From contig NZ_JACHXQ010000004.1 in NCBI RefSeq assembly GCF_014192285.1, forward strand, positions 1 to 64,000: DNA of 64,000 nucleotides, in the 5' to 3' direction. Under the pieces are notes generated by a model that saw nothing but the letters and a program-made list of their open reading frames with translations, did not search any database and had not been told where the DNA came from. The stretch is from Halomonas fontilapidosi (lineage in GTDB: Bacteria > Pseudomonadota > Gammaproteobacteria > Pseudomonadales > Halomonadaceae). The position numbers and the translations under genes are program-made. This document shows positions 3,713-12,220 of the stretch, piece after piece. Position 1 is the first letter of the stretch, and every line of letters starts with the position of its first letter.

Positions 3713-6508
3713 ATGCCCGATGATCCCGGCAGAGGTGGCCATTCCCTGCATCAGGCTCATGAGCTGCTCAGCTTCCACCTCGACAACCTGCCCTTGGCCG
3801 TCATCGAATGGGACAGCGACTTTCGCATCGCGCGCTGGTCGAGGCAGGCCGAAATCCTGTTCGGCTGGCCGGCCAAGGCGGTTGTCGGTCTACACCCCTT
3901 CGACTTTGGCTTTGTTCATCCGGAGGACGTCGAGTCTGTCGGTGAGGTCATTCGACGACTCCTCGGCGGAACCGAGCCACAGCACGTCTCGACCAATCGC
4001 AACCTGACCCGGGATGGGACCCTGATCGAATGTGAATGGCACAATTCCATCCAGCTCGATGATCAGGGAAGCGTGGTCTCGGTGCTCTCGGTGGTGAATG
4101 ACGTCACCGAGCGCAATGCCACCGAACGGCGTAATCGCGAGTTGCTGGCCCGTGAGCAGGCCCTGACGTCGCAGTTCCGCGCCATCTTCGAATCCGCCCC
4201 TGGCCTGTATCTGGTCCTGAATGCCGACGATTACCGGATCGTCGGGGTCAGCGATGCCTATCTGCAGACGACCTACACGGACCGCGAGGCCATCCTCGGG
4301 CGCTACCTGTTCGACGTTTTTCCCGTGACGCCCGACCAGTCGAATGCGGCCGGGTTCGAGGAACTGATCGCTTCGCTGGAGCGCGTCAAGCGCTATGGCC
4401 AACCCGATGTCATGCCGGTCCTGCGCTACCCGATTCCCAATCCCGAGACGGGCGACTTCGAGGAGCGCTACTGGAGCCCTATCAATGTCCCGGTCTTCGA
4501 TGAGCACCATCAACTGTCACTGATTCTGCACCGTACCGAGGACGTGACCGAGTATCTCGACGAAGCGCTGGTCATCGAACCGACGCACATGGAGCTGATC
4601 GCCCGTTCCCGTGAACTCAAGACTCTCCTTGAGCGTTATCGCAGCAGCGAAGAGCGCTGGCGCCGCCTCTTCGCCGAGGCCGCGACGGGGATCGTGCAGG
4701 CCGATACCACAGGGCGCTTCCTGTATGCCAATCAGGCCTTTTGCGACATGCTGGGCTATACCGAGGCGTCCCTGACCTCCACCGATTTCCTTTCCCTGAC
4801 GCATCCCGACGACAGGCCGGCCAATCTCGATAAGCTGGCGCGTTTGCTGGCCGGCGAGATGAACGGCTTTATCATCGAGAAGCGCATGCTGGATCGCCAG
4901 GGTGGGATCGTCTGGTGTCGAAACAGTGTCTCCGCTCAGCGCGATATTCACGGCACGATCGTCAGCCTGGTGGCTGTGATCGAGGATATCACCGCCCAGC
5001 ATGAGGCGGAGACGCGGCAGGTGTCACTGGCGCAGCGACTGACCCGAAGTCTCGAGAACATGAGCGATGCCTTCTTCCTGCTCGACGAAGAGTGGCGCTT
5101 CTCCTACCTCAACCAGCAGGCGGAGCGCGTGCTGGAAAGATCCGCCGAGGCACTTCTGGGTCGCAGCATCTGGGACGCCTTTCCCGAGGCCAGGGAGAGC
5201 GAGGCCTGGACCTGTTACCGGGCCGCGGTTGAAACCGGTGAGTCGAAGCACGTCACCTTCTACTATCCGCCCCTGGCCCAGTGGTTCGAGGTCAACGCCT
5301 ATCCGGGTGAGGAGGGCCTGGCCGTCTATTTTCGAACCGTCACCGAGAAAAAACGCCTCGAAGCGCAGCTTCAGGAAGCCCATCGCATGGAAGCCATCGG
5401 CCACCTGACAGGGGGCCTGGCACACGACTTCAACAATCTGCTGACCGTGATGATGGGCAATGCCGACCTGCTCAGCGAGGCACTCTCGGAAGACGCTCGG
5501 CTCAGTCCGCTGATCCAGGCCGTCGTTGACAGCGCCCAGCGAGGTGCCGACCTGACCCAGCGGCTGCTCGCCTTCGCTCGTCGACAGGCGCTGGATCCGC
5601 AACCCACCGACATTAACCGCTTGATCCGTAAGCTGAGCGAGTTGCTGCGGCGAACCCTGGGCGAGCAGATCGAACTGAATTTTCATCCCGGGAGCGACCT
5701 CTGGTCGGCCAATATCGATCCCTCGCAGCTCGAGAGTGCGATCCTCAACCTCTCCATCAACGCCCGTGATGCCATGCCCGATGGCGGGCACTTGACCATC
5801 GAGACCCGCAATGTCTCGCTCCCGGCCCAGTACACCGACGATTATCTCGAGCTGGCGCCGGGTGACTATGTCTGTATCGCGGTAACCGATACCGGCAGGG
5901 GCATTCCGGAGGCTATCCGGCATCGGGTCTTCGAGCCCTTCTTCACCACCAAGGAGAAGGGCAAGGGAACGGGGCTGGGCCTGAGTATGGTGTTCGGTTT
6001 CCTCAAGCAGTCCGCCGGGCACGTCAACCTTTACTCCGAAGCGGATGAAGGCACGACCATCAAGCTCTATCTGCCGCGCATTCGACAAGCCGCGGTGGGT
6101 CCCCGACCTGCTCCAGCGGAAGAGGCGCGTCTTCGGGGGAGCGAGACACTGCTGGTGGTCGAGGATGATGCCATGGTCAGAGGGTATGTCGTGGCACAAC
6201 TGGAGGCGGCAGGGTATGGTGTGCGCCAGGCGAAGGATGGTTCGAGTGCCCTGGCCATGCTTGCCGCTGATACCGCTATCGTGCTGCTCTTTACCGATGT
6301 CATGATGCCAGGGGGCATGACGGGCAGAGAGCTGGCCATTGCCGCACGCGGGCTCAGGCCCGAGCTCAAGGTGGTCTATACCTCCGGCTATACCGAGAAT
6401 GCCATCGTCCACGACGGCAGGTTGGATGAGGGCGTCCGATTCCTCGGCAAGCCCTATCGCCCCGCCGCCCTGTTGAGAATGATCAGAGAGACCCTGGATG
6501 AAGACTGA
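3713..6508 (+). CDS. Multi-PAS hybrid sensor histidine kinase/response regulator
   Basis: A 931-aa cytoplasmic-looking signalling protein; I see no transmembrane segment. The order is four PAS domains (roughly residues 15-130, 155-290, 320-440, 445-560), a HisKA dimerisation helix with GGLAHDFNNLLT (phospho-acceptor His571), an HATPase domain (N box INARDAMPDGG, G1 DTGRGIP, G2 GKGTGLGLSMVFG) and a C-terminal receiver (VVEDDAMVRGY, phospho-Asp862 in FTDVMMP, KPY). I start it at 3713, after GGAG with a 9-nt gap; the frame is open further upstream but runs into the tRNA terminator. It overlaps the next gene by 11 nt, so the two are probably co-translated and act together. The PAS ligands cannot be read from the sequence. 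Confidence 0.9.
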   Translation: MPDDPGRGGHSLHQAHELLSFHLDNLPLAVIEWDSDFRIARWSRQAEILFGWPAKAVVGLHPFDFGFVHPEDVESVGEVIRRLLGGTEPQHVSTNRNLTRDGTLIECEWHNSIQLDDQGSVVSVLSVVNDVTERNATERRNRELLAREQALTSQFRAIFESAPGLYLVLNADDYRIVGVSDAYLQTTYTDREAILGRYLFDVFPVTPDQSNAAGFEELIASLERVKRYGQPDVMPVLRYPIPNPETGDFEERYWSPINVPVFDEHHQLSLILHRTEDVTEYLDEALVIEPTHMELIARSRELKTLLERYRSSEERWRRLFAEAATGIVQADTTGRFLYANQAFCDMLGYTEASLTSTDFLSLTHPDDRPANLDKLARLLAGEMNGFIIEKRMLDRQGGIVWCRNSVSAQRDIHGTIVSLVAVIEDITAQHEAETRQVSLAQRLTRSLENMSDAFFLLDEEWRFSYLNQQAERVLERSAEALLGRSIWDAFPEARESEAWTCYRAAVETGESKHVTFYYPPLAQWFEVNAYPGEEGLAVYFRTVTEKKRLEAQLQEAHRMEAIGHLTGGLAHDFNNLLTVMMGNADLLSEALSEDARLSPLIQAVVDSAQRGADLTQRLLAFARRQALDPQPTDINRLIRKLSELLRRTLGEQIELNFHPGSDLWSANIDPSQLESAILNLSINARDAMPDGGHLTIETRNVSLPAQYTDDYLELAPGDYVCIAVTDTGRGIPEAIRHRVFEPFFTTKEKGKGTGLGLSMVFGFLKQSAGHVNLYSEADEGTTIKLYLPRIRQAAVGPRPAPAEEARLRGSETLLVVEDDAMVRGYVVAQLEAAGYGVRQAKDGSSALAMLAADTAIVLLFTDVMMPGGMTGRELAIAARGLRPELKVVYTSGYTENAIVHDGRLDEGVRFLGKPYRPAALLRMIRETLDED

Positions 6509-8660
6509 CCCATGGGACAGGGGGAAGTCGCCGCGCCTGCTGATCCTCGACGACGAGGCCATGACGGGCGAGACCATTTCCCGTATTGCCGAGTTCGCCG
6601 GCTTCGAGGCGCGACACATCACCTCACCCGCCGCCTTTTTCGAGGAGGCGATGCACTGGCATCCGGATATCCTGGCGCTTGACCTGATCATGCCGGAGAT
6701 GGACGGTGTGGAGGTGATGGCCGAACTGGCCAGGCGGGGCTGTCGGGCACGCTTGATCCTCACCAGCGGCGTAGGCAGCCGGGTCATGGATGCCGCCGCG
6801 CGCTCGGCAAGCGAGCACGGCCTGGATATCGTCGGGGTGATTGCCAAGCCCTTTTCGGCTTCCGCTTTTCGCGAACTGCTCCACAAGGCCTCCGAAAAGG
6901 ACGAGGAGCCGCCCGTCGGTGACTCGCCTGTCGAGATATCTTCCGCTGGGGATGCCAGTGTCGAGGATCTGGAAGAGGCGCTGAACTTTGGTCAGATCGA
7001 GATGGCCTACCAACCCAAGGTGCGTTGCCACACCGGCACCATCGTGGGCTTCGAGGCATTGGCTCGCTGGCACCATTCTCGGCTGGGTTTCGTGCCGCCC
7101 GACATCTTCATCCCGCTGGCCGAAGCCCATGGTTTGATCGATCGTCTCACTCTGCAGGTGAGCGAAAAGGCCCTCGACTGGCTAGCCGAGATGTCATCGG
7201 ATGCAACGGCCAAACGTGTCGGGCAGCATGTCCTTCAGGACATGCTGCTATCGCTGAACATCTCCGCTCGCTCTCTGGGCAACAACGCCCTGTTCGATGC
7301 CATCCTCCAGTGCTGTCGTGAGCATGGAATCAATCCCGAGCGCATCGTGCTCGAGCTCACCGAGTCCAGCGCCATGCAGGATGCCACCACCTCGCTGGAT
7401 ACTCTGACTCGGCTGCGCCTGCAGGGCTTTCAGCTCTCCATCGATGACTTCGGCACCGGCTATTCCTCGATGGTGCAACTGGTGCGATTGCCTTTCACCG
7501 AGATCAAGGTCGACAAGCGTTTCGTGATGACGGCCCCGACGTCGGAAGAGTCGCGGGCGGTGATCAGATCAGTAGTGGAACTTGGTCGTAGCCTGGGGTT
7601 GAGCACCACCGCCGAGGGTGTCGAGGACCAGGAGACGCTGGGTTACCTCGATGAACTGGAATGCGATCTGGCCCAGGGCTATCTGATCTCGCGCCCCCTG
7701 GCGCCGGACGCCGTCCTTGACTGGTTCGCTGCCCGCGAGGCACAGCGAGAGGAGCGCCGGCTGGCGGCGCTGAGCTGCCTTGGCCTGCTGGACACCCCCG
7801 CCGAGGCGCGCTTCGACCGTCTTACCCGGCTGGGGCGTCGGCTCTTCGGCGTTTCCACTGTGCTGATCAGCCTGCTGGATCGTGACCGCCAATGGTTTAA
7901 GTCCCGGCAGGGCCTCGATGTCACGGAGACCTCACGTGACATCGCCTTCTGTCACAAGGCGCTGGAGCGCGATGAGCAGATGGTGGTGCGCGATGCCCGT
8001 GCTCACCCCCTCTTCCATGACTATCCCGGCGTCATTGGCGCCCCCTTCATACGCTTCTATGCCGGGCGGCCTCTTTACCTTCGTGGCGGCGAGAAGGTCG
8101 GCACCCTCTGCCTGGTGGATACCGAGCCTCGGGCCTTCGGAGAAAAGGATGCCGAGATGCTCGATGATCTGGCCAGCATGGTCGAGAATGAACTGGCGCT
8201 TTCCGCCCAGGATGGCCATGATCTTTGCACGGGACTGCTCAGCCGCACGAGCTTCCGTGATCAGGCCGAAGCGGCCTGCCAGTTGGGGCGTCGGCTTGGC
8301 CTTTCCATGGCACTGGTATCGGCGAGACTCGACGAACTCTCCCTCATCAACAAGCGCTTCGGGCGCGACACTGGCGACCGGCAGTTGCAGCACTTGGCCC
8401 GCCTGATGCTGGAAGTGGCCGAGGATGCCGATCTGACCGGCCGCTACCGTGCCACCGAGGTCACCGCCCTGTTGATGGGTGCCGATCTCGACAAGGCAAG
8501 GCAGGTCGCTGAGCGACTGCGTCGAGCCGTCGGACGCAGTAATGATGCCCAGGCTCCCGGTCAAGCGCGACTCTCGCCAAGCATCCGAGTGGCGGAGCTT
8601 GCGCCCGATGAAAGGCCCTTCGAGCAGCGCCTGGAAGAGGCCTGGCAGTTCCTTAGTTGA
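6498..8660 (+). CDS. Response regulator with EAL, GAF and degenerate GGDEF domains
   Basis: A 720-aa c-di-GMP signalling protein and the likely output partner of the overlapping hybrid kinase. An N-terminal receiver (LLILDDEAMTG; phospho-Asp62 in ALDLIMPEMDG; Lys in AKPF) precedes an EAL phosphodiesterase domain with catalytic motifs intact: GFEALARW (Glu186), LNISA, LELTES, IDDFGTGYSS, KVDKRFV, AEGVED and AQGYLISRP. A GAF domain follows (about 415-570, RLAALSCLGLLDTPAEARFD type). Last comes a GGDEF fold in which the active-site loop reads RATEV (residues 651-655), so cyclase activity is not expected. I infer that it lowers c-di-GMP when phosphorylated. It starts at the ATG inside the kinase's last codons. 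Confidence 0.88.
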   Translation: MKTDPWDRGKSPRLLILDDEAMTGETISRIAEFAGFEARHITSPAAFFEEAMHWHPDILALDLIMPEMDGVEVMAELARRGCRARLILTSGVGSRVMDAAARSASEHGLDIVGVIAKPFSASAFRELLHKASEKDEEPPVGDSPVEISSAGDASVEDLEEALNFGQIEMAYQPKVRCHTGTIVGFEALARWHHSRLGFVPPDIFIPLAEAHGLIDRLTLQVSEKALDWLAEMSSDATAKRVGQHVLQDMLLSLNISARSLGNNALFDAILQCCREHGINPERIVLELTESSAMQDATTSLDTLTRLRLQGFQLSIDDFGTGYSSMVQLVRLPFTEIKVDKRFVMTAPTSEESRAVIRSVVELGRSLGLSTTAEGVEDQETLGYLDELECDLAQGYLISRPLAPDAVLDWFAAREAQREERRLAALSCLGLLDTPAEARFDRLTRLGRRLFGVSTVLISLLDRDRQWFKSRQGLDVTETSRDIAFCHKALERDEQMVVRDARAHPLFHDYPGVIGAPFIRFYAGRPLYLRGGEKVGTLCLVDTEPRAFGEKDAEMLDDLASMVENELALSAQDGHDLCTGLLSRTSFRDQAEAACQLGRRLGLSMALVSARLDELSLINKRFGRDTGDRQLQHLARLMLEVAEDADLTGRYRATEVTALLMGADLDKARQVAERLRRAVGRSNDAQAPGQARLSPSIRVAELAPDERPFEQRLEEAWQFLS

Positions 8661-8734
8661 GCCTCGGCGCCTTTTGGGCGCACCTCGCGAGCGTGGCGGG
8701 GTTTCAAGAATCGACAAGACGCTTTGCACGTTTC

Positions 8735-9292
8735 TCAAGCCAACCTGTCGCTGAGGCAGGAGGCATTCGGACACGCGGAGGCGTCCCCGAAGTGCTGACA
8801 GATCAGCGTCTCCTCCCAGGTATCCCAGACTTCCTCGAGCACCCGGCAGGCATTGATTTTCTGTTCGATGACATCGTGGAGTAGTACGTGAAGGTCCGGC
8901 GTGCCGCATGAATCCAGCATCAACTGATAGAACTGCCAGTCGCCATATGAAGCCGCCAACGCTTGACCGAGCGTCAACTGTGCGACGTCATTATCGGCGA
9001 CGAAGAAATGCTGTCGACGCTGCTGTGCTTCCAGGTCGTGAGGCACCGCTGGAGTGCTCAGTTTTCCCGCCAGACCCAGGCCTTCAGCCATGGCCACCAG
9101 GTGCTCCAGCCGTTGCTCGCAATCGATGCCGAATGCCTTCATTAGTCGGCTGATGCAGGGGAAGTGGGGCAGAAAGCTCAGCGCAAACCCGCGATAGCGA
9201 TGCATCTCTTCCGTTTCGTGGACCTGAGCCAGGCGGAACTCTTCCTCGGGGAGACAGCAACGAATCGGGCTATCCAGTATGAAATCAGACAT
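8735..9292 (-). CDS. Small ferritin-like (rubrerythrin-type) protein, paralogue A
   Basis: A 185-aa soluble protein of unknown function. I read four helices of ferritin/rubrerythrin type: helix 1 with HETEEMHRYRGFALSFL, helix 2 with CEQRLEHL, helix 3 with SYGDWQFYQLML, then a SCGTPDL turn, and helix 4 with VIEQKINACRVLEEV. The FYQLML-x-TPDL-x-EQ pattern is what rubrerythrin-like proteins show, but several usual Glu/His ligands are changed, so iron binding is uncertain. It is clearly paralogous to the protein at 10546-11022 (shared LPEE, HET, RGFxLSFL, CExRLE, RRQHxFV, AQ, SCxTP, VEQK), and the two flank ectD on the same strand. An AGAGGTGA ribosome site precedes the ATG. The C-terminal tail of about 25 residues is not shared with the paralogue. 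Confidence 0.6.
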   Translation of the reverse strand: MSDFILDSPIRCCLPEEEFRLAQVHETEEMHRYRGFALSFLPHFPCISRLMKAFGIDCEQRLEHLVAMAEGLGLAGKLSTPAVPHDLEAQQRRQHFFVADNDVAQLTLGQALAASYGDWQFYQLMLDSCGTPDLHVLLHDVIEQKINACRVLEEVWDTWEETLICQHFGDASACPNASCLSDRLA

Positions 9293-9441
9293 GTCACATC
9301 ACCTCTTCCCATAGGGGCTTTCCTGAGCACGATGACCGATGTGGGCGAGAAGCAACCCGAGCCTGTGCAAGGAAATTTTTTCCATCCGACACGACGCTCC
9401 AAGAGGGCCTTTCACCAGGAGCAGTCCTTCCCGTTATCCGG

Positions 9442-10425
9442 TCAGGGTGTCCAGCGTTCTTCGGGCTCATGGGCCAGGAAGCGTGGGCGGGGCTTGGCGG
9501 CAGCGAATGGCTTATGGCAACGATTATCGACCCGGTTATAGACGAAGAAGACGTTGCTTCGTGGATCCGGTGACATGTTGGCATTGGAGGCATGCAGCAC
9601 GTTGCAATCGAAGAGCAGCAGGCCGCCGGCATCTCCTGTTGCCGCCTCGATACCGCCGGCCCTAGTGATCAGTTCCGCCAAGGCCTCCTGGCTGGGCACG
9701 CCGACTTCCTGGTGCTTGAGAGAATTTCGATAGTTGTCCTCTGGTGTTTCTCCCACGCAAGGCACGAAAGTATTCTGAGACCCGGGTACCAACATCAGAG
9801 GGCCGTTGAAGTGGTGATTGTCGGTGAGGATCAGCGAGGCGCTGACGGCATGCATCTTGGGAATGCCGTCTTCCGCATGCCAGGTCTCGAAGTCCGAATG
9901 CCAGTTGAACCCCTTGCCGGCAAAGCCAGGCTTGTAGTTGATGCGGGATTGATGAATATAGGATTTGTTGCCGAGGATCTGGCGGACACGCTCGGTCAGG
10001 CGTTCGTCGTGTGCTAGAGCATTCAGCCGTTCGGAAAGAAAATGCACAGCGAACAGGGAGCGTATCTCCTTACCCTGTGGCTCAGTGATGCTGAAGTCCC
10101 GCCCTATGTACTCTTTTTGCACCATGAGGCGGCGCATTTCTTCCCGCAGGGCCTCGAGTTCTTCTCCCTCGATGAAATGAGGCAGGAAAATAAAACCCTT
10201 CTCCTCGAATTCATCGAGCTGACGCTGGGTAAGAGGGCCAGGGTAGTCCCGGCCCTTGACGACGGGCTCACGACGCTCGATCAACTTCTGTTCGGGTGCA
10301 TAGGTAAAGCGCGTGGGATAGGGATCTGGCACCTGGGTATCCGTCGCCCCGATTCCCGGGAGGTCCGAGGTTTCCGTCAGTTGTTTACGGGTAGAGACCT
10401 CAAGGGAGGATCTTGTCATTGTCAT
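9442..10425 (-). CDS. ectD: Ectoine hydroxylase
   Basis: A non-haem Fe(II)/2-oxoglutarate dioxygenase that converts ectoine to 5-hydroxyectoine, a compatible solute. The EctD signature is present: FNWHSDFETWHAEDGIP with the iron ligands His and Asp of HSD, the third His in FDCNVLHASNANMSPDPRS, and the N-terminal YPTR and FIFLPHFI segments typical of the family. At 327 aa it is about the family length. The start is the first ATG of MTMTRSS, seven bases after AAGGAG. Ectoine synthesis genes (ectABC) are not adjacent, as is usual when ectD stands apart in Halomonas-type genomes. It lies between two paralogous ferritin-like genes in the same orientation. Confidence 0.95.
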   Translation of the reverse strand: MTMTRSSLEVSTRKQLTETSDLPGIGATDTQVPDPYPTRFTYAPEQKLIERREPVVKGRDYPGPLTQRQLDEFEEKGFIFLPHFIEGEELEALREEMRRLMVQKEYIGRDFSITEPQGKEIRSLFAVHFLSERLNALAHDERLTERVRQILGNKSYIHQSRINYKPGFAGKGFNWHSDFETWHAEDGIPKMHAVSASLILTDNHHFNGPLMLVPGSQNTFVPCVGETPEDNYRNSLKHQEVGVPSQEALAELITRAGGIEAATGDAGGLLLFDCNVLHASNANMSPDPRSNVFFVYNRVDNRCHKPFAAAKPRPRFLAHEPEERWTP

Positions 10426-10545
10426 CGTGATGGTCTCCTTTGCGGAGTGAAGTCACTAGAAACGTTTGGCCTATCAGGCATGGCACGTGCCCCGGGGCCG
10501 CGGCGCGTATTGGTATATCCTTTATGTGTCAGTGGCCGGACAGAC

Positions 10546-11022
10546 TCAGCGCTCTCTTAGCTCTTTGATGATTTGATAGGCACAGTGCTTCTGTTCGACA
10601 AACTGTCTGAGCAGGTCAGCCATTGCTGGGGTGCTGCAAGATGTCAACAGCAGCTCCTGGAAGTTCAGGGAATGATCCGCCACTGACAGGGCTTGCGAGA
10701 GCACCTGCTGAGCCTTGTCGTCATTGACGACGAAGGTATGTTGTCGACGTATCTCGGCAGGAATGGCGTTATGGGCTTCGCCGACCCTCACTCCGTCGGA
10801 TATCTGCATCGATGTTGCCGTGCTGGCCAGCCTCTCGAGGCGTTTCTCGCACTCCTTGGACAGTTCTCCCATCACGCCACTCATGGCGGGATCGAGCGTC
10901 AGGAAACTTAGCTGAAAACCGCGGAAATGATGCTTCTGCTGGGTCTCATGATCAGCGGCCAGTATCAACTGCTCTTCCGGCAACAAGCTGTAAATCCGGC
11001 TGTTCGGGATGGCCTGTGGCAT
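10546..11022 (-). CDS. Small ferritin-like (rubrerythrin-type) protein, paralogue B
   Basis: A 158-aa protein, paralogue of the one at 8735-9292 and first in the ferritin-like/ectD/ferritin-like row. It keeps LPEEQL, HETQQKHHFRGF, CEKRLERL, RRQHTFVVND, NFQELLLTSCSTP and FVEQKHCAYQIIKEL, which matches a four-helix ferritin-like fold with weakened metal-site residues. I chose the ATG at 11022, 30 nt inside a longer frame. It follows GGGGGA at a good distance, and the N-terminus then aligns with paralogue A without gaps (14 residues before LPEE in both). A perfect FNR/Anr palindrome lies about 130 bp upstream. The function is unknown; iron storage, iron delivery or stress sensing are possible. 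Confidence 0.6.
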   Translation of the reverse strand: MPQAIPNSRIYSLLPEEQLILAADHETQQKHHFRGFQLSFLTLDPAMSGVMGELSKECEKRLERLASTATSMQISDGVRVGEAHNAIPAEIRRQHTFVVNDDKAQQVLSQALSVADHSLNFQELLLTSCSTPAMADLLRQFVEQKHCAYQIIKELRER

Positions 11023-11148
11023 TGTCGTTGTCCCCCGTATTGCCTGCTTCATGTGCGGGCCCTACGTCGGGACTATAGCGCTGGGCTACGGAAGGGAAAT
11101 TATGGTGGGTTAATGACAATGAGAAATAATCTGAGAAGAGCGATTTGA

Positions 11149-11162
11149 TTGATTCAGATCAA
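11149..11162. promoter_or_regulatory. Perfect FNR/Anr-type palindrome
   Basis: TTGAT-TCAG-ATCAA matches the FNR/Anr consensus TTGAT-N4-ATCAA at every fixed position. It lies between convergently placed sequence: the only gene start nearby is the ferritin-like gene at 11022 on the minus strand, 127 bp away. This suggests oxygen-responsive control of that gene, and perhaps of ectD beyond it. Confidence 0.6.
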
Positions 11163-11239
11163 TACACAGCGACATGTGACGACCACAACGGTCAGGCATT
11201 TCAACTCTTGCCTCGCCGACATGATGTGGCCTGTCGGGG

Positions 11240-12220
11240 TCAGCCGCCCCTCAAGGCAACATCGTTGACCAGATCGATCGGCCGTTCGCCCTTGAGCGCC
11301 AGGATCAGGTTGTCCACGGCGCGCTGGGCCATGGCGGTGCGCGTCTCGTGGGTCGCCGAGCCAATGTGCGGTAGGGCCACCACGTTGGTCATGTGTGGCA
11401 ACGGAGACTCCGGCGAGAGCGGCTCCTGCTCGAAGACGTCAAGGCCGGCGGCGCGAATGCGCCCCATCTCCAGCGCCTCGATGAGTGCGGCCTCGTTGAC
11501 GACCTTGCCGCGGGCGATGTTGACGAAGATCGCCGATGGCTTCATCAGGGCAAACTCTCGCTCGCCGATCAGGTGCTCGGTCTTGGGGGTGAGGGGCACG
11601 GTGACACAGACGAAGTCGGATTCGGCAAGCAGCCTGTCCATCTCGCGCCGCTCCGCCCCCAGTTCGCGCTCGAGCTCGGGCTTGGGGGAGGCATTCGAGT
11701 AGAGGACGCGCATGCCGAAGCCTAGGGCGCCGCGCCGGGCCACGGCGGCGCCGATGCGCCCGAAGCCGATCAGCCCCAGGGTCTTGCCATGCACGTCGCT
11801 GCCGAAGTGTTCGGGACCGATCCCGGCGTTCCAGTCACCGCGCTTGACCAGGTCGGCCAGCTCCAGGGCGCGCCGGGCGGCGGCCATGATCAGCAGGAAG
11901 CCGGTGTCGGCGGTGGTCTCGGTGAGCACGTCGGGGGTATTGCATAGCAGGATGCCGCGGCGGGTCAGCGCCTCTACTGGGTAGTTGTCGTAGCCCACCG
12001 AGATGGTGGCGATGGCTTCGAGCCGGGGCGCGGCATCGAGCAGCTCGGGCGTGATGGCCAGGCCGGCGCCGATCAGTCCGTGGGCGTGGGGTAGTGCGGC
12101 CCGGAAGGCCGGGTCGTCGGCGGAGGCCAGGCCGGGAAAGGTCTGGACCTCGACGTCTTGGCCAAGCTGAGCCAGTTGCTCATCATTCAGGCGGCCATAG
12201 GCGAGGATGCGCTTCTTCAT
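11240..12220 (-). CDS. D-2-hydroxyacid dehydrogenase (glyoxylate/hydroxypyruvate reductase type)
   Basis: A 326-aa NAD(P)-dependent D-isomer 2-hydroxyacid dehydrogenase. Seen: the nucleotide fold LGLIGFGRIGAAVARR, the catalytic Arg in NIARGKVVNEAALIEAL, the Glu in LDVFEQEPL, and the His in LPHIGSATHETR. The HFGSDVHGKTLGLIG segment is typical of GhrB-like glyoxylate/hydroxypyruvate/2-ketogluconate reductases; the precise substrate cannot be told. AAAGGAG precedes the ATG. It is downstream of putA but separated from it by a strong terminator, so it has its own transcription unit. A role in glyoxylate or hydroxypyruvate handling linked to the serine/glycine flow of the betaine cluster is possible but not shown. 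Confidence 0.85.
   Translation of the reverse strand: MKKRILAYGRLNDEQLAQLGQDVEVQTFPGLASADDPAFRAALPHAHGLIGAGLAITPELLDAAPRLEAIATISVGYDNYPVEALTRRGILLCNTPDVLTETTADTGFLLIMAAARRALELADLVKRGDWNAGIGPEHFGSDVHGKTLGLIGFGRIGAAVARRGALGFGMRVLYSNASPKPELERELGAERREMDRLLAESDFVCVTVPLTPKTEHLIGEREFALMKPSAIFVNIARGKVVNEAALIEALEMGRIRAAGLDVFEQEPLSPESPLPHMTNVVALPHIGSATHETRTAMAQRAVDNLILALKGERPIDLVNDVALRGG

Follow-up and report, generated by a model that had tools for sequence, protein, structure and literature searches.

A divergent extra ectoine hydroxylase gene between two predicted ferritin-fold paralogs, behind a FNR/ANR-type box in Halomonas fontilapidosi

Described relatives and layout of the locus

Ferritin L chains carry a lysine in a dismantled ferroxidase site, and the FNR/ANR motif is TTGAT-N4-ATCAA. 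In metal-free R2, three metal-binding glutamates are replaced, one of them by lysine, and no metal is held (from a section of PMC11846895). The ftnA gene of P. aeruginosa is reported to be under Anr in a passage of PMC8945002. With respect to ectoine hydroxylase (EctD), the portions of PMC3979721 drawn on here place the facial triad of the V. salexigens enzyme at His146, Asp148 and His248 and its 17-residue signature at Phe143-Pro159; they also state that the enzyme requires O2 and that obligate anaerobes are without ectD. The presence of multiple ectD-type genes in one genome is reported to be not unusual (excerpt of PMC5924519). Part of PMC9006882 reports that H. elongata raises ectD only at high salt, a condition in which ANR drops sharply.

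The window, i.e., the whole stretch of DNA that was analyzed, represents 64,000 nt of the H. fontilapidosi genome, which is 3.6 Mb in 23 contigs. The window copy of ectD differs from known ectD genes in that it sits behind a FNR/ANR-type box and between two genes of predicted ferritin fold. The features are as follows.

8735..9292, minus strand: A185, an ORF of 185 aa; third gene of the cluster; predicted ferritin-fold protein that has no ExxH in either helix 2 or helix 4
9442..10425, minus strand: ectD, an ORF of 327 aa; middle gene; predicted ectoine hydroxylase, extra divergent copy
10546..11022, minus strand: B158, first gene of the cluster; an ORF of 158 aa when counted from the ATG at 11022; predicted ferritin-fold protein (an alternative start, the ATG at 11052, gives 168 aa)
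11149..11162, minus strand: FNR/ANR-type box TTGATCTGAATCAA, -140 to -127 from the B start, in the presumed promoter region of the cluster
8701..11400, no strand: GC-poor stretch with B, ectD and A, seen in a composition profile and in gene-by-gene GC and GC3

The order of transcription on the minus strand is B158, ectD, A185, with intergenic gaps of about 120 bp (B-ectD) and about 150 bp (ectD-A). No terminator-like site was found in either gap on the minus strand, and separate promoters could be present inside both. A sequence-only reading of this DNA had described 158- and 185-aa paralogs on either side of ectD, all on the minus strand. The ORFs are confirmed, and A and B align without gaps over 157 residues with 38% identity (E 1e-34, single comparison). 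The middle gene was also named correctly: its translated aa sequence scores 346.5 bits with NCBIfam TIGR02408 (ectoine hydroxylase), where the cut-off is 336.5.

Three TIGR02408 proteins are encoded in the genome (346.5, 360.8 and 368.4 bits), together with two ectoine-synthase-type matches. The HxD...H facial triad is present: across the six EctDs compared, the HSD sequence lines up, as does the histidine of the later LHAS/LHGS. At the 17-residue signature, the alignment to five other EctDs shows FNWHSDFETWHAEDGIP in the window copy, with I at the position where the five others have M; the signature is otherwise the same, with the exception of D for N in the copy on contig C11. The window protein is predicted to hydroxylate ectoine.

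In an EctD tree of 94 rows, where the window copy is entered twice, the window EctD groups with that of a relative, G011, and with a metagenome contig (support 99/86), and the genome's own copy on contig C8 falls in a separate clade with the genus relatives G013, G101 and G015. GC3 of the window ectD is 0.67 vs 0.86 and 0.88 in the other two copies of the genome. The low values extend to the neighbors A and B: GC is 0.555-0.582 across 8701..11400 in 600-base windows, with flanks mostly at 0.60-0.70, and GC3 is 0.67-0.69 in B, ectD and A vs 0.75-0.88 in six neighboring genes. GC3 of the B-ectD pair of G011 is also low, 0.64. Inspection by eye of repeats around the three genes showed no clear insertion scar. 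In a check for the empty site, rep and the cytochrome c gene were found retained in five relatives; in the stretches compared, G039 is the only relative with a close putA (about 2.2 kb from the cytochrome c gene), and no match to a protein of the trio lies between the two genes there. The site in relatives is only partly documented. The window ectD is a divergent, GC-poor, extra copy that was probably acquired, and the B-ectD-A cluster as a whole was probably acquired horizontally.

Predicted fold and metal site of A and B

Neither A nor B has a Pfam or NCBIfam family above cut-off. The Rubrerythrin family (PF02915) gave no match to A or B at E up to 1, its gathering score not being reached, and matched two of 32 members of the family to which A and B belong (E up to 1; best 0.058). 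Searches of Pfam, NCBIfam and PDB sequences, for which A, B and the family served as queries, gave weak results or none, and no DUF2383 protein was found in the H. fontilapidosi genome itself.

The structure models are more informative. The AlphaFold2 model of A185 (pLDDT 88.5, pTM 0.81; 32-sequence alignment) has helices at 15-40, 45-71, 101-128 and 132-167, and that of B158 has pLDDT 86.1 and pTM 0.79 (26-sequence alignment). Both are four-helix models with ferritin-like proteins as best structural matches, which bears out the earlier suggestion of a rubrerythrin-like helix pattern with partly lost ligands. Foldseek matches are mostly ferritins, Dps-like proteins and manganese catalase, with prob 0.92-1.00, TM mostly 0.5-0.7 and weak E-values (0.0063 or worse); the best match of B158 is a FtnA variant (E 6.3e-3, prob 1.00). 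In VIA-align, A185 reaches Z up to 16.8 against ferritins, with rmsd 2.1 over 137 residues, which is above, not far above, the best Z of 14 that is typical for mostly helical models without a clear match. FtnA, bacterioferritin and the animal ferritin L chain are among the best structural matches of the two models. In contrast to FtnA and bacterioferritin, the family is without the diiron motif pair, and AlphaFold2 predicts no fifth helix in B.

A sequence bridge to the Rubrerythrin proteins, with which the four-helix ferritin-like fold appears to be held in common, is provided by three proteins (L101, L102 and L200), encoded in two genomes of the order and in a further genome of the class. 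These exceed the Pfam Rubrerythrin cut-off and can be aligned to the family profile across most of the profile, with E of 1.4e-4, 2.4e-4 and 5.5e-9. A and B are predicted from the models to be four-helix bundles of ferritin topology.

Conservation was assessed in 97 distinct family sequences from the loci fetched, which cover part of the 122 matches known. Conserved residues are H25 (88%), E26 (99%), E29 (91%), R32 (95%), Y33 (97%), R34 (95%), E59 (85%), R61 (95%), K145 (87%) and E148 (77%). Scanned for ExxH starting within the helix-2 stretch 54-63 or the helix-4 stretch 139-151, none of the 97 sequences has the motif in both, 92 have it in neither, and five have one in either stretch. Three sequences of another genus (G162, G243) retain E57xxH60 in helix 2, and one family sequence has ExxH at 63/66. 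B158 displays E143xxH146 in helix 4, out of register with the family pattern; it has K145 as well and no helix-2 ExxH. In the alignment to L102, which is of the Rubrerythrin type, K145 and E148 fall on the E and the H, respectively, of its helix-4 ExxH, and E26 aligns with a helix-1 Glu. Most members have K145xxE148 where the bridge protein has ExxH, and no member has both ExxH motifs. Position 115 in helix 3 is Ala in 80 of the 97 sequences and Glu in 11. The three sequences with E57xxH60 suggest that helix 2 originally had its ligands at 57/60 and gained E59 later; the helix-2 ligand may therefore be E57 rather than E59.

On models and alignments together, the family is one that keeps a ferritin fold without the diiron motif pair. 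Thus, where the sequence-only reading had left a diiron site to be looked for in a ferritin-like structure, the predicted fold agrees, and the ExxH pair in helices 2 and 4 is absent. We infer a Lys-Glu bridge in place of the iron site. The likeness to metal-free R2 is in the exchange of a ligand for lysine only; no sequence relation is claimed and radical chemistry is not implied. If correct, the pattern adds a case to the metal-free ferritin-fold proteins.

An alternative is that the family may be degenerate and still bind metal, through a mononuclear or altered site formed from E26, E57 or E59, E148 and H25, or, specifically in B, from E143 and H146. The conservation of E26, H25 and E148, the E57xxH60 of three members and the E143xxH146 of B are what such a site would call for. 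Against these stands the lysine that occupies a likely ligand position in 87% of sequences. E59 and K145 also tend to be kept or lost together, as expected of a charge pair (both kept in 81 of 97, both lost in 12, mixed in four), although this argues weakly against a metal site because the 12 double losses are one branch. A retained, altered metal site is regarded as quite unlikely, and a metal-free protein is the reading followed below.

Family distribution and the FNR/ANR-type box

Four family members are found in this genome. In the genus, 122 matches are distributed over 57 of 90 genomes, with 0 to 5 per genome. In wider samples, it is found in seven of 293 genomes of an order sample, two of these with only weak Rubrerythrin-type matches, and in nine of 369 genomes of a class sample at E up to 0.01, among them one strong match outside the family (G393, 1e-18), the Rubrerythrin-type L200 and five partial matches with E >0.001. 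The family is an uncharacterised one, mainly of Halomonadaceae. Searches of plasmid and phage records gave no relatives of B at the limits used, and a contig search with B alone gave 47 pattern matches and no relatives.

Family genes recur in several genomic slots, the neighbors of which are labeled here as read from sequence. In slot S1 the gene adjoins fumC and a phasin gene; in S2, an enoyl-CoA hydratase-like or helicase-like gene and a purL-like gene; in S3, a Crp-type regulator gene and msrA; and in S4, a FIST protein gene and pgi. The other two members in this genome adjoin genes read as pgi and crp/msrA, and not ectD. In the family tree, A groups with two stand-alone genes of G054 and G070 (support 100/97). 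The partner of B is the ectD-linked gene of G011 (100/100), to which B is 57% identical; support for grouping A with B is only 95/43. A recent local duplication of A and B was considered and rejected, as the tree places them in different branches. Thus of the duplication around ectD proposed from the sequence alone, the paralogy stands and the local copying does not.

A perfect FNR/ANR box, TTGATCTGAATCAA, is found upstream of B, the first gene of the cluster, and is the only perfect TTGATNNNNATCAA in the window. The next gene upstream, a 2-hydroxyacid dehydrogenase gene (11240-12220), is on the minus strand like B, and no divergent gene therefore shares the box. Genome-wide there are 28 TTGAYNNNNRTCAA sites, vs three for the reversed pattern. 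The surroundings of 15 of the 28 were read: one site has a cytochrome gene on one side and nirS (Cytochrom_D1) on the other, one precedes a CCP_MauG protein (di-haem peroxidase), one an arsenite-oxidase-type Rieske protein (TIGR02694), and one B. Most other sites among the 15 are without a nameable low-oxygen link, and some may be chance occurrences. A second Fnr-like gene has a further site some 70 bp upstream. Of the genome's four family genes, two are each preceded by one of the 28 sites; the rough Poisson chance of this is 2e-5, a figure that ignores kinship.

An Fnr is present in the genome: the L301 protein scores 287.6 bits with NF008365 (cut-off 228), and the L302 protein, with 227.6 bits, is just under that cut-off. 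On inspection by eye, a CxxCxxxxxC pattern is seen close to the N-terminus of both. The genome thus has the box, the regulators and some classical-looking targets of a FNR/ANR regulon, and from these sequences the cluster is predicted to be switched on by an Fnr-type regulator when oxygen falls.

The box is also found before many other family genes. Within 250 bp of the profile-aligned start, 60 of 91 family upstream sequences contain it with one mismatch or fewer (6 of the 97 were skipped for a short locus or upstream), vs seven of 537 neighboring genes, for which gene-finder starts were used; the reversed pattern occurs in neither set. Many rows are related and the Fisher figure, like the Poisson one, ignores this, so that a p-value overstates the case; the sound statement is that several separate genomic places each carry the box. 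By slot, the counts at one mismatch or fewer are 17/25 in S1, 22/26 in S2, 1/13 in S3, 11/11 in S4 and 2/4 in S5; both of A's kin have it (2/2), as do the B gene of the trio and 4/7 others. The 250 bp before A185 itself contain no box at this level of mismatch.

With gene-finder starts the counts are lower, as several starts are set too far upstream and the boxes are hidden: 21 of 92 family upstreams vs 23 of 626 with the strict pattern at one mismatch or fewer in 300 bp, and 45 of 87 family upstreams with the YR pattern in 250 bp. Conservation of upstream windows, also taken from gene-finder starts, ranks the box first of 504 in S4 and fifth of 686 in S2, where the higher ranks overlap the box or the start codon. 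For S1, the upstream block with the highest conservation overlaps the box and has an imperfect box as its majority sequence. In S1, S2 and S4 the box sits between divergent genes and may partly serve the neighbor.

Neighborhood of ectD and readings of the cluster

The flanks of ectD genes were scanned over 1.5 kb for 30 loci, up to 5 kb for 80 and 9-10 kb for three, some ending at contig ends. Within these flanks a family member lies near ectD in two of 93 distinct ectD sequences, that of this genome, the only one with the full B-ectD-A trio, and that of G011, which has the B-ectD pair (57% identity for B and 83% for EctD to the window pair). The other two family genes of G011 are on another contig, and thus no A is found beside its ectD. 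The other two EctDs of the H. fontilapidosi genome have no family member in flanks of 9-10 kb. A conserved trio, the presence of which in other Halomonadaceae had been left to be checked, was rejected as far as the search extends; the B-ectD pair is what recurs, in one relative.

These counts bear on the earlier proposal that A and B are iron donors or buffers for the Fe(II) enzyme EctD, or guards against its oxidation. A ferritin-like fold on either side of a Fe(II)/2-oxoglutarate enzyme, with E26 and helix-2 glutamates retained in most members, is suggestive of such a role, and a passage on salexigens (in PMC6104435) favors the general idea. However, the ExxH pair is absent throughout the family, lysine stands at a likely ligand position, family members are near ectD in so few cases, and in this genome the remaining family genes and the remaining ectD genes lie apart. 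The iron role is not supported and is considered highly unlikely; with a FNR/ANR box before B, a regulatory link fits better.

We regard it as fairly probable that B-ectD-A is an acquired cluster behind a FNR/ANR box, that the family consists of metal-free ferritin-fold proteins of the low-oxygen regulon, and that this EctD is an extra hydroxylase within it. The three genes would be transcribed from the promoter region bearing the box, and an Fnr-type regulator of the genome would turn them on at a fall in oxygen or in denitrification. A and B would have kept the four-helix bundle and lost the diiron site, with lysine and glutamates at the ligand positions, and their most likely role would be that of metal-free scaffolds or partners of other proteins at low oxygen or in the stationary state, for example as non-catalytic subunits comparable to the L chain beside the H chain in ferritin. 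The extra EctD, under oxygen control, would make hydroxyectoine from scarce O2, outside the usual high-salt induction.

A different view is that the neighborhood is accidental: B and a mobile ectD came together, A landed beside them, and the box serves B alone, with ectD on its own salt-controlled promoter. Such an origin would agree with a trio in one genome and a B-ectD pair in two, with the GC-poor stretch, with the different branches of A and B, with gaps of 120-150 bp, and with family genes that number 0 to 5 per genome and lie at unrelated places. It would also agree with the upstream sequence of B in G011, where there is no box within two mismatches (best 3); low-oxygen control is therefore not fixed in the lineage of the window ectD. 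On the other hand, B, ectD and A share strand and low GC, no terminator-like site interrupts them on the minus strand, and the B-ectD pair has been retained in G011 at the identities given above. An accident is thought unlikely, though less so than the two alternatives already discussed, and the oxygen-regulated cluster is preferred.

What is new here is that a nameless family of ferritin-fold proteins, the metal site of which is dismantled, has a FNR/ANR-type box, and that the family is combined with an extra ectD. In the open-licence literature, as far as its accessible portions go, no report was found of such a ferritin-fold family or of ectD in a FNR/ANR regulon. A wider proposal is put forward tentatively, as possible and somewhat doubtful: that halomonads have a family of low-oxygen-induced, metal-free ferritin-fold proteins with a Lys-Glu bridge in the iron site, like the ferritin L chain, and that two of these proteins here captured an imported ectD and tied hydroxyectoine to oxygen shortage instead of, or besides, salt. 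If true, this would equip a nameless protein family with a fold, a probable regulator and a role open to testing, and hydroxyectoine synthesis can be wired to oxygen status, which would be useful to makers of hydroxyectoine in halomonads. Such wiring would be unexpected for an O2-dependent enzyme that is reported, in part of PMC9006882, as salt-induced in H. elongata.

The box pattern was also sought before ectD genes in general. Among 93 ectD upstream sequences (400 bp, aligned start) there are no exact boxes and 11 with one mismatch, a share that exceeds the seven of 537 in the control, with a longer stretch and related genes. Some other ectD genes may also carry imperfect boxes.

Boxes upstream of ectD and of other genes

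Sites resembling the FNR/ANR-type box are also found in front of other ectD genes. Of the 93 distinct ectD sequences, 11 (for example at loci L279, L282, L290 and L291) have a TTGAYNNNNRTCAA-like site, one mismatch away from the pattern, within 400 bp upstream. Such sites are commoner here than in front of neighbouring control genes, of which 7/537 carry a site with at most one mismatch in a shorter stretch of 250 bp, although the ectD genes are related to one another. Two boxes in the H. fontilapidosi genome (G000) lie as follows:

G000:C7:65576-65589, box ~70 bp upstream of a second Fnr-like gene (L302)
G000:C1 521690-521703, strict TTGATGCATATCAA ~80 bp upstream of the gene for a 153-aa protein (L212)

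The protein encoded at L302 scores 227.6 bits, marginally below the cut-off of the Fnr family model NF008365 (228 bits), and the position of the box upstream of its gene suggests a regulator cascade. The 153-aa protein displays a weak likeness to Ferritin_2 (E 0.0037, under the cut-off) and is a candidate second ferritin-like protein, different from the A/B family, behind the same type of box. A strict box is also found at L214 (G000:C1, site 617631), upstream of a gene whose product is a Rieske protein resembling the small subunit of arsenite oxidase (TIGR02694).

Surroundings of the trio and a second EctC-type match

In the window, two genes separate the cytochrome c gene from A; in the relative G011, the cytochrome c gene is followed directly by ectD.

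3713-8657, PAS/histidine-kinase gene and response-regulator/EAL-type gene
G000:C5:38946-39314, the second of two EctC-type matches of this genome; its reported open frame contains a TAA

Divergent members of the ferritin-fold family

Both E59 and K145 are lost in one branch of 12 family members (L010, L114 with two genes, L142, L144, L146, L154, L155, L169, L176, L191 and L195). Most adjoin a Crp-type regulator and msrA, and no box with at most one mismatch is found in this branch. The helix-2 motif E57xxH60 is kept in three members from another genus (L118, L100; genomes G243, G162), where it is perhaps a remnant of the former metal site. Genes for Rubrerythrin-domain proteins at L101, L102 and L200 adjoin apparent 2-oxoacid:acceptor oxidoreductase subunit genes.
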